In this document: positions 11,924 through 16,411 of the stretch, in pieces
Layout: the number at the start of each line of letters is the position of its first letter
Position numbering within the stretch: the stretch's first letter is position 1
Assembly: GCF_005144585.1 (NCBI RefSeq)
Contig: NZ_SSMQ01000007.1
Coordinates: 62,001-126,000, forward strand
Length of the DNA stretch: 64,000 nucleotides
Origin: Polyangium fumosum
Lineage (GTDB): Bacteria > Myxococcota_A > Polyangia > Polyangiales > Polyangiaceae
Direction of reading: 5' to 3'
Program-made: the position numbers and the translations under genes
The notes under the pieces: model-generated
What the model was told of the DNA's origin: nothing
Seen by the model: only the letters and a program-made list of their open reading frames with translations
Databases searched by the model: none

Positions 11924-13555
11924 ATGAAGTTTTGCCCGAACGTCGCATGTCCGCATCGACAGCACACCGGCACGCCGGCCGAATATGACGTGGATCGACC
12001 GGACTGCGCCGATTGCGGCGCGGAACTCGCGGACGGGCCGGCTTACTACGCCGCTCCCATGGCGGAGTCCGCGGCGCGCCCGCTTCCGCCCGGATTCGTG
12101 TCGCGCATCGTGGTGACGGTCGTCGCGCTCGCCGTCGCGATCGCAGGTCCGAGGCTCGTCCCCCTGCCCGGCGTCGATACGAACGTCTTGCCGCCCAGCA
12201 CGTCGCTGGTCAACGTGAGCATGTTCGCGCTCGGCCTGCGGCCGATCTTCGCCGCGGCGCTGCTCGTCGAGGTCGTCGCCTGGCTCGTCCCGCCCCTGCG
12301 CCCGCTCCGGCACGCGGGGCCCGCGGGCCGCGAAAAACTCGGGCGCGCCATGATCTTCGTCGCCATGGGCCTCGCGCTCGCGCAGGCCTACGCCATTTCG
12401 ACATGGATGTACTTGGCGGAAATCGGCACGTATCATAGCGTCCTCGTGATAGGCAGCCTGCTCGCCGGGATGAGCTTGCTCGTGCTGCTCGCCGCGTGGG
12501 TGACGAGGCGAGGCCTCGGCAGCGGGTATGCCTTGCTCTTTTTGGTCCCGGAGCTCGTCGCCGAGGGCGAGCGCCTCTACGAGATCCTCACGGGCATGAT
12601 CACGGGCGACCCGCCCACGGCCGCCGAGATCGCCCCCATCCTCGGCATTCCGGTGCTGCTCGTCGCCACGACGGTCGCGTGCTCGCGCTGGCCTGCTTGG
12701 CGGGACGAACGCGTGCGCACGAGAGCAGCCGGCGCGGAGCCTTATCGGCGAGGCGCCGACGCGGAGGGGGCAATTCCGCCGCCGCTCCGGCTGCCGGCCT
12801 CGGGTCTCGCGCCGGTGCTCGTGGTCGCGTCCTTGGACGCGCTGCTGAGGATGTTGCTGAAAATATTGACGGCCGTCGGCCTGTTCCCTTTCGACGCCAT
12901 TGCGTGGTATCTCCACCGTGACGGCGGTCCGATCGCCGTCCTCCTCGTCCTCACGGCAGCGCTCGTCCTCGTCTTCGGATGGCAATTCCAGACGCCGACC
13001 GCGCGCCAGGCCCTCTGGCACCGCGTGCGCCAGTTCTCGCCCGCGAGCCGCCCCCTCGACGAGGGGAACGCCGAGGTCCTCGCGGCGCTCCGCAAGAGCG
13101 TCCTTCCGCTCTGCATCTTCGTGATCTTGCCGCTGCTCGTCGACGTGGGCCCGGGGTCGAGCTCCTCTTTCCTGCCGCTCCTGACCGTGCTCGTCCTCGA
13201 CCTCGTCGCCGAGATCCGCGCGCGCTCGCACATTGAGGGCGAGCTCGTCTCGGTTTGGCCGGAGCAACGCGTCTTCGCCGCGGACATGGTCGCCGCCGTC
13301 CTTCGCAGCGAGGGGATCCCGGTCCTGCTGCGCGGCATCCATTACCGGACGATGGCGCGTTTCCTCCACCCCTTCGTCCCCATCGAGGTGATGGTCCCCG
13401 AATCCCACGCCGCGGAGGCGACGCGCATCGTGCGTCAAATCCTGAGCGGCGAAGCCCCGCCTCCCGAGGTTCGCTCGGACGAACCCGACAAGACCACGGC
13501 GCAAAAAATGAGACAACGCAAAAAGAAGCCGGCCGGGGACGAGGCGACGGCCTGA
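11924..13555 (+). CDS. Zinc ribbon / SecY-like membrane core / DUF2007-like tail protein
   Basis: A 543-residue protein with three parts. Residues 4-31 form a zinc-ribbon-like Cys set (C4-x4-C9, C28-x2-C31). Residues about 55-400 are polytopic and closely resemble SecY: PLPGVDTNVL, then MFALGLRPIFAAALLVE, a cytoplasmic loop with AGPAGREKLGRA, ALAQAYAIS, and RRGLGSGYALLF, in the order and spacing of SecY TM1-TM5. The C-terminal segment (about 440-505: VFAADMVAAVLRSEGIPVLLRG, then PIEVMVPESHAAEA) matches DUF2007, a putative signal-transducing domain. A GAGGGG ribosome site four bases before the ATG at 11924 supports this start over the upstream ATG and TTG. It is not in a ribosomal-protein operon, so it is unlikely to be the housekeeping SecY. 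Confidence 0.8.
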   Translation: MKFCPNVACPHRQHTGTPAEYDVDRPDCADCGAELADGPAYYAAPMAESAARPLPPGFVSRIVVTVVALAVAIAGPRLVPLPGVDTNVLPPSTSLVNVSMFALGLRPIFAAALLVEVVAWLVPPLRPLRHAGPAGREKLGRAMIFVAMGLALAQAYAISTWMYLAEIGTYHSVLVIGSLLAGMSLLVLLAAWVTRRGLGSGYALLFLVPELVAEGERLYEILTGMITGDPPTAAEIAPILGIPVLLVATTVACSRWPAWRDERVRTRAAGAEPYRRGADAEGAIPPPLRLPASGLAPVLVVASLDALLRMLLKILTAVGLFPFDAIAWYLHRDGGPIAVLLVLTAALVLVFGWQFQTPTARQALWHRVRQFSPASRPLDEGNAEVLAALRKSVLPLCIFVILPLLVDVGPGSSSSFLPLLTVLVLDLVAEIRARSHIEGELVSVWPEQRVFAADMVAAVLRSEGIPVLLRGIHYRTMARFLHPFVPIEVMVPESHAAEATRIVRQILSGEAPPPEVRSDEPDKTTAQKMRQRKKKPAGDEATA

Positions 13556-13558
13556 GGT

Positions 13559-14374
13559 TCACTTCGGGCAGATGTCGAACTCGGCGATCGTCGTTTCGAG
13601 ATAAAAATTCGAGCCCGACGTGTGCCGCTCGGCGAAGAAGAGCGCGAAGGGGAACACCTCGCCTTTCGTGATCCCGAGGGTCTCGGCCGCTTCGTCGAGG
13701 AGGATCGTCCGGCTCTCGGTCGCGTGCACGCCCCCGAGGTCGATGGCGAGCCGGTCGTTGATGAAGACCCATAGGTCGTCGTCCCCGCGGAACGTGAGCG
13801 ACTCGCCGCCGACGTACCGGAACGGGATCTGCATCTCCAGCGTGAAATGAAAATTGTGCGGATTTCCCTCGTTGCCGAGGAGCTGTCCGTCGATCGGAAA
13901 GAAGTCGGGCGCGTGGAAACGATACACGTCCGGCGTATCCGGGCTTGACGCGAGGTCGAGGATGAACGACGTCGAGGCATTGACCCCAGGGACGTCGCGG
14001 TACCATTCGTCGAAGCTCGCCTTGCCGCTCGTCGTGGGGGTCGTGGGGCTGCCGGCGTAGACGGGTTTGCCGTCGCTGCCGAGGTTCGTCTGGACGATCC
14101 CGAGATCGAGGCCGATCGAAGCCTCCTCGAAATCAGGGTGCGCGGCGCTGAAATCGCGGATCGTGACGCCGAGGGGGAGCGTGGAGGACGGCTGGGGCGC
14201 CGTGCAGCCCTCCCATCGCCCGAAGACGCACGTCTCCACGCCCTTGCCGCAGATGGTCTCGCATTCCCGTGTTTGCCCCTCCACCTGGCAGACGGGGAGC
14301 TCGGTGCGCGCACCACAGCCTGAAACGAGGCCGAGGAGGAGGAGCCCACGAACGATCGTCGCCATGACGATCAT
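13559..14374 (-). CDS. Fibro-slime domain lipoprotein
   Basis: A 271-residue predicted lipoprotein: signal peptide with lipobox VSGC, then a short Cys-rich segment (CQVEGQTRECETICGKGVETC), then a fibro-slime/PA14-like domain. Domain signatures are LPLGVTIRDFSAAHPDFE near the start, WYRDVPGVNAS, FHFTLEMQIPFRYVGGESLTF, the calcium-site-like DDDLWVFINDRLAIDLGGVH, and FALFFAERHTSGSNFYLET. This family occurs in secreted adhesins and cellulosome or slime proteins. The ATG at 14374 has GGGGAGA five bases upstream. It follows the EGF-type lipoprotein gene on the same strand after 33 bases, so the two surface proteins are likely co-expressed. It ends 3 bases from the convergent SecY-like gene. Confidence 0.85.
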   Translation of the reverse strand: MIVMATIVRGLLLLGLVSGCGARTELPVCQVEGQTRECETICGKGVETCVFGRWEGCTAPQPSSTLPLGVTIRDFSAAHPDFEEASIGLDLGIVQTNLGSDGKPVYAGSPTTPTTSGKASFDEWYRDVPGVNASTSFILDLASSPDTPDVYRFHAPDFFPIDGQLLGNEGNPHNFHFTLEMQIPFRYVGGESLTFRGDDDLWVFINDRLAIDLGGVHATESRTILLDEAAETLGITKGEVFPFALFFAERHTSGSNFYLETTIAEFDICPK

Positions 14375-14407
14375 CGTCTCCCCGGCCTCAGGCGAAATCA
14401 ATGCATT

Positions 14408-16411
14408 TTACTGGAGGAAGCCGGCCGCGCAGCCGTTCGCCACGAGCCGCGCCCAGTCACCGGTGCCCTGCATCCCCGGGTGACCGGTGCCGTTCGAATA
14501 AACGACCTTGAAGTCGGGACGGTACGCATGCGCGATCTCGCCGTCGGCGTACGTGCCGTCGATGATCCCGGCGCCCTGGAGGATGAGGTAATCGCGGTAG
14601 GGCGAGGCGTACGCCGAGACGCCGCTGTGCAGGAACGTCGTGCCATTGCCCGAATAACTCGACGAAGTGTAGAGGTTGTCCCCGGTCGGCGACACGACGG
14701 GCGAATACGCCGCGGTCATGATCTTGCCCGCGAGCGAGATGTTGCTCGTGTACGTCGAGAAGGCGCCGAGGACCACGTTGCCGCCCGCGTCCACGAAATC
14801 GCCGAGGTTGTTGCCGAAGTTGGTCCCGTTGGCGTACCCCTCGTTGACCCAGGTGTGCACGCAATCGTAGGTGTTCAAGGTCGCGAGCGAGGGCGTGGAC
14901 GTGCGGGGATCGACATAGGTCACCGTGCCGCCGGTGATCGCCGCGATGGCGGTGCGATACGAAGCGGCGTCGGCGATCGACGGGGCATACGCGATCCGGA
15001 TGCGCGCGCAGGTGCTCGGGGTGCCCTTGCACCGGAAGTACGGCTCGACCTTGCAGATCGCCGAGCAACCGTCGCCGCCCATGGCGTCCCCGTCGTCGCA
15101 TTTCTCGCCGGGCAAGAGGATCCCGTCGCCGCAGAGGGGCGTGCACACGCTCGGCATGCCGGTGCAGGTGTAGCCGCTCTCGACCTTGCAGGTCGCCGAG
15201 CAACCGTCGCCCGCGACCGTGCCCGCGTCGTCGCACGTCTCGCCCGCGACCACGAGACCGTCGCCGCAGACCGCCGTGCACGTCTTGCCATTGCCGGTAA
15301 AACCCGGCGTGCAGGCGCAGGTGAACGAGCCGGGCTGGTTCGTGCACGCCGCGTTCGGATCACAATCGTCCGTGTTGGCGGCACACTCATCCACGTCCGT
15401 GCACTGGACGCCATTGCCCGTGTATCCCGTGTTGCACGTGCAAGAGAACGAGCCGGGCTGGTTCGTGCACGCCGCATTCGCGTGGCAGTTGTCCGTATTC
15501 AGCGCACACTCGTCCACGTCCGTGCACTGGATGCCGTCGCCGGTGTATCCCATGTTGCACGCGCACGAGAACGAGCCGGGCTGGTTCGTGCACGCCGCAT
15601 TTGCGTGGCAGTTGTCCGTATTCAGCGCGCACTCGTCCACGTCCATGCACACGACGCCGTCGCCCACGTAACCCATGTTGCAAGCGCAGGTGAACGAGCC
15701 GGGCGAATTCATGCAGGACGCGTTCGCGTCGCAGTTATCGGTATTCAGCGCGCATTCGTCCACCTCCGTGCACGCAACGCCGTCGCCCGCATATCCCATG
15801 TTGCAGGCGCAGACGAACGAGCCCGGCGTGTTGGTGCAGCTCGCATTCGCGTGGCAGTTGTCCGTATTCAGCGCGCACTCGTCCACGTCCGTGCACGCTG
15901 TCGGCTCCCCCGCGCACTCCCAGCCGGACTCGAGCGTGCAGGCCGCCGAGCAGCCGTCCGCACCGGCCGTATTGCCGTCGTCGCAGGCCTCCATGCCGGC
16001 GATCAGCCCGTCGCCGCAGCCCGTCGTGCACTTGCTCGGCTCCCCGGCGCAGCTCCATCCTTCTTCGACGGCGCACGCCGCCGAGCAGCCGTCCGCATCG
16101 GCCGTATTGCCGTCGTCACACCCCTCGCTGCCTTCGACCGCGCCATCGCCGCAGACGGCGCTGCTGCCGCCCGCGCCGCCTTGGCCCCCCACCCCACCCT
16201 GACCGCCTTGGCCGCCCTGGCCGCCGTCACCGCCCTGCCCCGCGTCGCCGCCCTGGCCGCCTTGGCCGCCCTCCCCGCCCTGGCCCGCGCTGCCGCCTTG
16301 GCCCGCGCCCCCCGTCGTGGGCATCGATGGGTCGCTGCTGCAGCCCGCAGCTGCCACCGATATCGCCCCGAGGAGCAAGATCCCGCTGATCGCCCGAATC
16401 CCACCACGCAT
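14408..16411 (-). CDS. Surface lipoprotein with Gly-rich tether, DUF4215 repeats and five EGF-like modules
   Basis: A 667-residue lipoprotein (lipobox AAAGC). After a tether of GGQGG-type repeats (about residues 34-84) come two Cys-rich DUF4215-like repeats (CGDGxxxxxExCDDGNT...DGCSAxC), then five calcium-binding EGF-like modules beginning [12 protein letters not shown] (about residues 172-375), then two more DUF4215-like repeats. A C-terminal domain of about 190 residues begins with [10 protein letters not shown]. That last domain contains [15 protein letters not shown] and [11 protein letters not shown] and may be a glutamine-amidotransferase-like or other alpha/beta fold. Each EGF keeps six Cys, an N-terminal D-x-D-E calcium site, and the C-x-C pair. 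Role: likely adhesin or matrix protein on the cell surface. Confidence 0.88.
15290..15898 (-). repeat. Five tandem EGF-encoding units of about 123 bp
   Basis: Five near-identical units, each encoding one EGF-like module with the conserved start DVDEC and end CxCNxGYxGxG. Neighbouring units differ at few bases (for example the repeated GCCGGGCTGGTTCGTGCACG block on the plus strand), which suggests recent expansion by recombination. Confidence 0.85.

Follow-up and report, generated by a model that had tools for sequence, protein, structure and literature searches.

A SecY paralog with a shortened plug region, flanked by a zinc-ribbon-like module and a DUF2007 domain, in Polyangium fumosum

The window analysed in this study is a stretch of 64,000 nucleotides from the 13-Mb genome of Polyangium fumosum, and positions given below without a locus label are counted from its first letter. 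On the forward strand of the window, we identified a gene (11924-13555) that opens with an ATG at 11924, closes with a stop codon at 13553-13555 and encodes a protein of 543 amino acids in one frame. The Cys4 zinc-ribbon-like N-terminus, the SecY core and the DUF2007 domain that the initial annotation had described at this locus were all recovered from the sequence and by Pfam, and the layout is shared by the orthologues. A misannotated join of two genes is ruled out by the single frame and by the presence of the same design in six genomes. The N-terminus (residues 4-31; 11933-12016), predicted to be cytosolic, carries four cysteines (C4, C9, C28 and C31, arranged as CPNVAC...CADC) that constitute a putative metal-binding site, and all four are retained in the 6 members of the genus. 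The SecY-like core (residues 51-441; 12074-13246), with ten helices and both ends facing inward, was delimited by the Pfam profile PF00344 (67.1 bits against a cut-off of 32.2, E = 2.2e-18, residues 99-355), a structural model, topology and the profiles of its two halves. It is followed by the DUF2007 domain (residues 441-510; 13244-13453), which is cytosolic by topology. This domain scored above the cut-off of its family (PF09413; 30.0 bits against 25.7, E = 6e-7, residues 451-505), labelled in Pfam as putative signal-transducing, but is here joined to a SecY core; it was modelled as a small alpha/beta fold, the strands and helices of which span residues 441-507. The protein ends in a variable Lys/Arg-rich tail (residues 511-543; 13454-13552) modelled with low confidence.

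The Pfam profile, profile-profile comparisons made half by half and the comparison of models all indicate that the core is a true full-length homologue of SecY. The helix order TM1-TM5 given in the initial annotation was found as listed, but the listing was incomplete, as TM6-TM10 are also present. When the paralogs described below were compared with 29 canonical SecY sequences by hhalign, their TM7-TM10 part aligned with residues 265-426 of the E. coli protein (probability 95.5, E = 1.5e-8, in a single comparison) and their first half matched with a probability of 99.6; after a single shuffle of its columns, the second half gave a probability of 0.1, as did the DUF2007 part. The match of TM7-TM10 rules out that only the first half of the core is derived from SecY. 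An AlphaFold model of the window protein, built from seven sequences only and thus of low confidence (pLDDT 56.8, pTM 0.47), contained ten membrane helices in the order of SecY, and residues 51-439 of the model were superposed by VIA-align on 8ya3_Y (Z = 17.0, 322 residues, rmsd 6.5). The best 40 Foldseek matches of the model were Sec translocon entries by title, as were the best 50 VIA-align matches, and the 16 sequence matches among solved structures were SecY, by which a placement of the core in another membrane family is excluded. Neither of the outcomes named in the initial annotation as refuting it, a core belonging to another membrane family or a model devoid of the SecY pseudo-two-fold repeat, was encountered. 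For the stretch from TM10 through DUF2007, the search for a solved relative gave only a chance-level match (E = 0.61). With helix limits set by hand from the model, lysine and arginine amounted to 17 in 91 residues of the inner loops and 1 in 75 residues of the outer loops, and both ends of the protein are therefore predicted to be cytosolic. In a plain hydropathy scan, nine of the ten helices appeared as peaks; TM5 gave no separate peak, and one extra peak fell within DUF2007. We regard it as firm that the protein is a SecY paralog in which the plug is cut down and a DUF2007 domain is present.

The gene is a paralog because the same genome also possesses a housekeeping secY, which was found on another contig, encodes 442 amino acids and is flanked by neighbours (named from sequence) in the gene order of the spc operon. 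The window gene stands alone and away from ribosomal genes, as had been claimed: the neighbours tested with Pfam are a phosphorylase-superfamily gene, a gene with no Pfam match, a PA14-type gene and a gene for an EGF/DUF4215 protein. The last of these, on the reverse strand (14408-16411), encodes 667 amino acids with five EGF-type and four DUF4215 repeats, and adjoins the gene for the PA14-type protein (13559-14401, reverse strand). The NCBIfam model of housekeeping SecY (TIGR00967) gave 54.4 bits to the window protein against a cut-off of 253.6, below the equivalog level, and the SecY2 model (TIGR02920) gave 15.2 bits against 249.6. In a tree calculated from 29 canonical SecY and 24 paralog sequences, a branch with 100/100 support separated the two sets; the branching order within the paralogs is unsure owing to their long branches. 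The window protein resembles SecY in the ten-helix fold, the presence of both halves, the helix order, the glycines of TM4-TM5, the aspartate of TM10 and the inward position of both termini, but differs in a short plug segment, a glutamate in TM2b in place of Gln, Ser or Thr, rebuilt loops C4 and C5, the added zinc ribbon and DUF2007 domain, and a gene position outside the spc operon. It is comparable to SecY2 of the accessory Sec systems in being a second, diverged SecY beside a housekeeping copy, but the added domains differ and only a single SecA match was found in each of the 6 genus genomes. In a paper on Minicystis rosea (PMC8436480), secY is treated as a universal single-copy marker for myxobacteria. 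M. rosea carries a second SecY-type gene (at our locus L122), by which the picking of markers could be confused.

The residues of the core were compared in one MAFFT alignment, on which all counts over 36 paralog rows rest (the frame-broken copy of genome G211 being left out), and are numbered after E. coli SecY unless stated otherwise. The region corresponding to residues 36-78, which includes the plug, comprises 27 residues in the window protein (TM1-TM2b segment; 12158-12220) and 42-45 residues in 29 of 29 canonical SecY sequences; judged by segment length, the window protein lacks the plug helix TM2a. The same region has 36 residues or fewer in 34 of the 36 paralogs, the exceptions being those of G217 (41) and G128 (42). 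At position 93 in TM2b, canonical SecY has Gln (23/29) or Ser or Thr (6/29); Glu was found there in all 36 paralogs, including the window protein (Glu116; 12269-12271), and in none of the 29 canonical sequences. All 36 paralogs retain both Gly182 and Gly186 of TM4-TM5, and the Asp415 position of TM10 is occupied by Asp in 35 of 36 (Asp426 of the window protein; 13199-13201). The situation is different for Arg357, Arg255 and the loops C4 and C5, which we take to be the docking sites of SecY for SecA and the ribosome. Arg357 is found in only 7 of the 36 paralogs, i.e., the six members of the genus (Arg376 of the window protein, in loop C5; 13049-13051) and that of G044. Gly359 is kept in a single paralog as against 29 of 29 canonical sequences, and Arg255 likewise in one paralog as against 22 of 29. 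Loop C4 of the paralogs has an arginine of its own, mostly in a PYR motif (23 of 24 paralogs; Arg275 in the PYRR of the window protein, 12740-12751), at a position that is a gap in 29 of 29 canonical sequences. Among the positions that we assume, from the E. coli numbering, to form the pore ring, Ile187 is replaced by Phe or Tyr in 20 of the 36 paralogs, and the residues aligned with the ring in the window protein are L105, F109, Y202, F206, L299 and L419, in a pore that is poorly modelled. The paralog of G217 (locus L053) also carries a long serine run within the cytosolic C4 loop.

The whole gene was found in all five other genomes of the genus examined, with 67-86% identity and no internal stop, so that among the 59 relatives retrieved, 6 of 6 genus genomes (that of P. 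fumosum included) carry the full gene at 67-100% identity and with the three-part design; more distant members among the 59 came from G044, G027, G029, G011 and G033. Profile searches covered 289 genomes at the level of the class and 377 at that of the phylum, and a search for related loci gave 6 loci, all in Myxococcota. As the profile also matches housekeeping SecY nearly everywhere (265 of the 289 class genomes at 1e-8), paralogs were picked by their frame and domain content. The resulting table comprises at least 37 paralogs, which represent no fewer than 11 families of Myxococcota; the 36 from our G-numbered genomes bear the family labels f1, f9, f18, f20, f22, f23, f31, f35, f38, f47 and f64, and a broken copy was met in f3 as well. 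Uncounted in the 37 are the fragments or broken copies in G236 (contig C97), G038 (C23, locus L012) and G008 (C170, L026), which may reflect loss in some lineages or poor assembly. As to layout, 13 paralogs have the zinc ribbon (12 by pattern and that of G431 by eye), ten have SecY-DUF2007 followed by the periplasmic P1 domain of SecD, seven have P1 ahead of SecY-DUF2007, and seven have neither; the zinc ribbon and P1 never occur together in the 37 tabulated proteins. One of the seven with neither, that of G211, is frame-broken and is the same protein as that of locus L120, which runs into P1 in another frame; it was kept in the table and left out of the tree and alignment A2. Pfam was run on 31 of the 37 (all but those of G001, G002, G003, G005, G074 and G211), of which 25 passed the cut-off for SecY, 4 that for DUF2007 and 17 that for the P1 head. 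The six below the SecY cut-off (G132, G431, G102, G450, G113 and G451) were assigned to the family from their layout and their match to profile A1 or A2. A DUF2007 profile built from the family matched 12 proteins outside those used to build it (from G297 to Minicystis) at 4e-8 or better; the E-values of the members that it was built from are so by construction. A similar N-terminal Cys4 ribbon (CPNPAC...CSDC) was noticed on an unrelated small membrane protein in G027 (contig C26; locus L131, 1373-2137, forward strand), and the ribbon at locus L007 bears a weak likeness to the NCBIfam '4-Cys prefix' (E = 0.077). Such Cys4 ribbons may move between proteins as a cytosolic module. We found no published description of such a paralog in the open-access literature.

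The P1 domain lies in the same chain as SecY in 17 of the 37 paralogs, at the C-terminus in ten and at the N-terminus in seven, and SecDF_P1_head (PF22599) scored above its cut-off in every one of them (loci L008-L011, L053, L054, L056-L060, L062, L063, L103-L105 and L122). With overlapping hydropathy peaks read as one, exactly one hydrophobic segment separates DUF2007 from P1 in all ten C-terminal fusions, and six of the seven N-terminal fusions have one such segment before P1 and another between P1 and TM1 of SecY; the seventh, in G181, has lost its front at a contig end. From these segments, P1 is predicted to be periplasmic in 16 of the 17 fusions, if the topology of SecY holds. In the three fusions scanned with the NCBIfam SecD model, the match covered positions 56-262 of 397 (L103, N-terminal), 118-218 (L122, C-terminal) and 126-217 (L009, C-terminal). 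As these matches are only partial, the remaining membrane part of SecD is absent from the three proteins. Different pieces of SecD are present in the N- and C-terminal fusions scanned, and at least two captures of P1 are thus the simplest reading. We modelled the fusion of M. rosea DSM 24000 (L122, 5905-8031; 709 amino acids) with low confidence (pLDDT 56.9, pTM 0.34). In this model, residues 498-709 matched SecDF 5yhf (Z = 14.1, rmsd 1.8 over 109), residues 499-708 matched SecDF 3aqo (Z = 13.9, rmsd 1.8 over 108) and residues 10-364 matched SecY 5aww (Z = 15.3, rmsd 5.9). The likeness to SecD/SecDF thus lies in the P1 head of 17 relatives of the window protein, one of which was modelled and matched SecDF structures; the difference is that P1 is joined to SecY in these relatives, and the window protein itself is devoid of P1. 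The later helices of SecD, the location of the proton path of SecDF, are missing from the P1 fusions. According to a review, P1 possibly binds the emerging chain on the outer side and moves with proton flow (PMC6028853).

In the genus of the window, P1 is not found in fused form, but a separate lipoprotein-like protein of 241 amino acids with a SecDF P1 head is encoded in G000 (contig C110; locus L102, 6777-7502). Most of its length is homologous to the fused P1 modules. It is 37.6% identical to the fused P1 of G029 over 213 residues and 31.0% identical to the SecD of its own genome over 210 residues. The free gene is present in four of the six genus genomes (G000, G002, G003 and G004) and was not found in the other two searched (G001 and G005). 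It is a possibility that this protein is a working partner of the window protein; a consistent co-occurrence of the free lipoprotein with paralogs lacking P1 was not found, as it went undetected in G001 and G005. Other free P1-head proteins occur in two genomes with fusions (G011 and G027) and in three in which we recognised no paralog (G024, G048 and G053). A protein of 365 amino acids in G011 (contig C219; locus L139, 1135-2229, reverse strand) has hydrophobic segments and a SecDF P1 head at its end but no match to SecY, and is a further unusual use of P1.

Nei-Gojobori estimates of omega from four pairs within the genus, all without error bars, were 0.42-0.62 for the core, 0.07-0.22 for the zinc ribbon (only 40 codons) and 0.12-0.29 for DUF2007 (only 70 codons). 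The C-terminal tail of 33 codons gave 0.38-1.60, with values of 1.0 and 1.6 in two pairs. Housekeeping SecY gave 0-0.14 in the same four pairs. The core is therefore constrained, yet much more weakly than SecY, and conservation within the protein is highest in the soluble ends. This pattern fits a specialised channel and a sensor about equally, and it is the P1 fusions that lead us to prefer the channel. SecE and SecA (SecA_DEAD) were each detected as one match in each of the six genus genomes (G000-G005), and the idea of a SecE or SecA reserved for the paralog is rejected on this ground. Within the genus, the locus is syntenic and its flanks are kept (L038-L042); no operon common to all was found among 21 loci of other genera. 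Around these 21 loci, a protein kinase gene lies near the paralog in four (L111, L114, L120 and L122) and adjoins it in two (4637-6712 of L114 in G226 and 8127-10217 of L122 in M. rosea), an OmpA-family gene lies near in three (L034, L035 and L104), directly downstream in L035 (8366-9259; G033), and a gene for an AMP-binding enzyme lies near in two (L112 and L122). Kinase and OmpA-family neighbours may simply be common in these genomes, or may have a link to the paralog.

Taken together, we propose, at a confidence about evenly balanced between right and wrong, that the protein works as an accessory Sec channel or insertase devoid of a plug, controlled by modules in the cytosol and equipped with a periplasmic catch, which is fused in some relatives and perhaps separate in the case of the window protein. 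The paralog would pair with the only SecE detected in the cell and handle a narrow range of substrates, either as a channel or as an insertase working through the lateral gate, and the usual docking of SecA and the ribosome would be largely dispensed with. The DUF2007 domain and the zinc ribbon would sense or recruit at the cytosolic side, and P1, fused or possibly supplied as a separate lipoprotein, would catch the emerging chain. As the remaining membrane part of SecD is absent from the fusions, P1 would be a passive ratchet and not a pump. In favour of this reading are the Pfam, profile, model and topology results for the SecY core, the short plug segment and the TM2b glutamate, the P1 fusions with their hydrophobic segments, the single SecE and SecA matches, the lack of an operon shared between families and the free P1 gene in four of the six genus genomes. 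Several observations stand against an accessory channel. The core evolves fast (omega of 0.42-0.62 against 0-0.14 in housekeeping SecY), and the docking residues are largely lost (Arg357 kept in 7/36, Gly359 and Arg255 in 1/36 each). P1 is not fused to the window protein, a free P1 gene was not found in two of the six genus genomes, and other free P1-head proteins occur where no paralog is recognised. The models are of low confidence, 6 of 31 proteins fall below the Pfam cut-off for SecY and 27 of 31 below that for DUF2007, TM5 has no hydropathy peak of its own and one peak lies inside DUF2007.

The initial annotation had offered signalling, a specialised channel and a decommissioned translocon as possible roles, of which the repeated fusions to P1 favour the specialised channel. 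If the protein is instead a membrane sensor, the SecY-derived part would be a non-conducting scaffold from which the zinc ribbon and DUF2007 inform the cytosol about the condition of the membrane or of secretion. The idea of a signalling role gains from the soluble ends evolving more slowly than the core (omega of 0.07-0.29 against 0.42-0.62), from the annotation of DUF2007 as putative signal-transducing and from the similar ribbon on the unrelated membrane protein of G027. Nevertheless, P1 in 17 of 37 relatives suits the handling of chains better than sensing, and the near invariance of the TM2b glutamate and the two TM4-TM5 glycines (36/36 each) and of the TM10 aspartate (35/36) indicates that the core is not a mere scaffold; we therefore consider a sensor unlikely. 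Drift of a decommissioned translocon towards loss might account for the fast core, the patchy distribution and the broken or fragmentary copies in G236, G038 and G008, although the last are possibly due to poor assembly. This reading appears very improbable to us, since the gene is intact in all six genus genomes, P. fumosum included, omega is below 1 for the core, zinc ribbon and DUF2007 in four of four pairs (the values of 1.0 and 1.6 being confined to the tail), and the family as a whole has invariant residues and has gained domains repeatedly.

A different division of labour would be that of a motor-free insertase or membrane-protein chaperone, YidC-like in use, in which substrates enter by the lateral gate and nothing passes through the pore. 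The short plug segment, the loss of most C4/C5 residues and the presence of one SecA only agree with this, and Phe or Tyr at the Ile187 position in 20 of the 36 paralogs would suit a closed pore. However, P1 is described as possibly binding chains on the outside (PMC6028853), which implies that something must emerge there, and we rate such an insertase as quite improbable.

SecY belongs to the most conserved proteins of the membrane, and its gene serves as a single-copy marker. A diverged family of paralogs in which the plug is cut away offers an experiment of nature on what the pore ring, the plug and the docking loops C4/C5 contribute, and the P1 fusions permit a direct test of the debated point of whether P1 can aid the chain without the proton-driven movement of SecDF. 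It is attractive to speculate, although we are inclined to doubt it somewhat, that these proteins form a phylum-wide class of single-chain translocons, in which a plug-less SecY, a pump-less P1 captured at least twice and a cytosolic control domain are combined, and that Polyangium splits the machine into a zinc ribbon-SecY-DUF2007 channel and a free P1 lipoprotein. If this is genuinely the case, the family would be, within the searches made, the first natural case of the SecYEG-SecDF partnership in one gene. The P1 fusions also suggest a dedicated route of export or insertion in myxobacteria.
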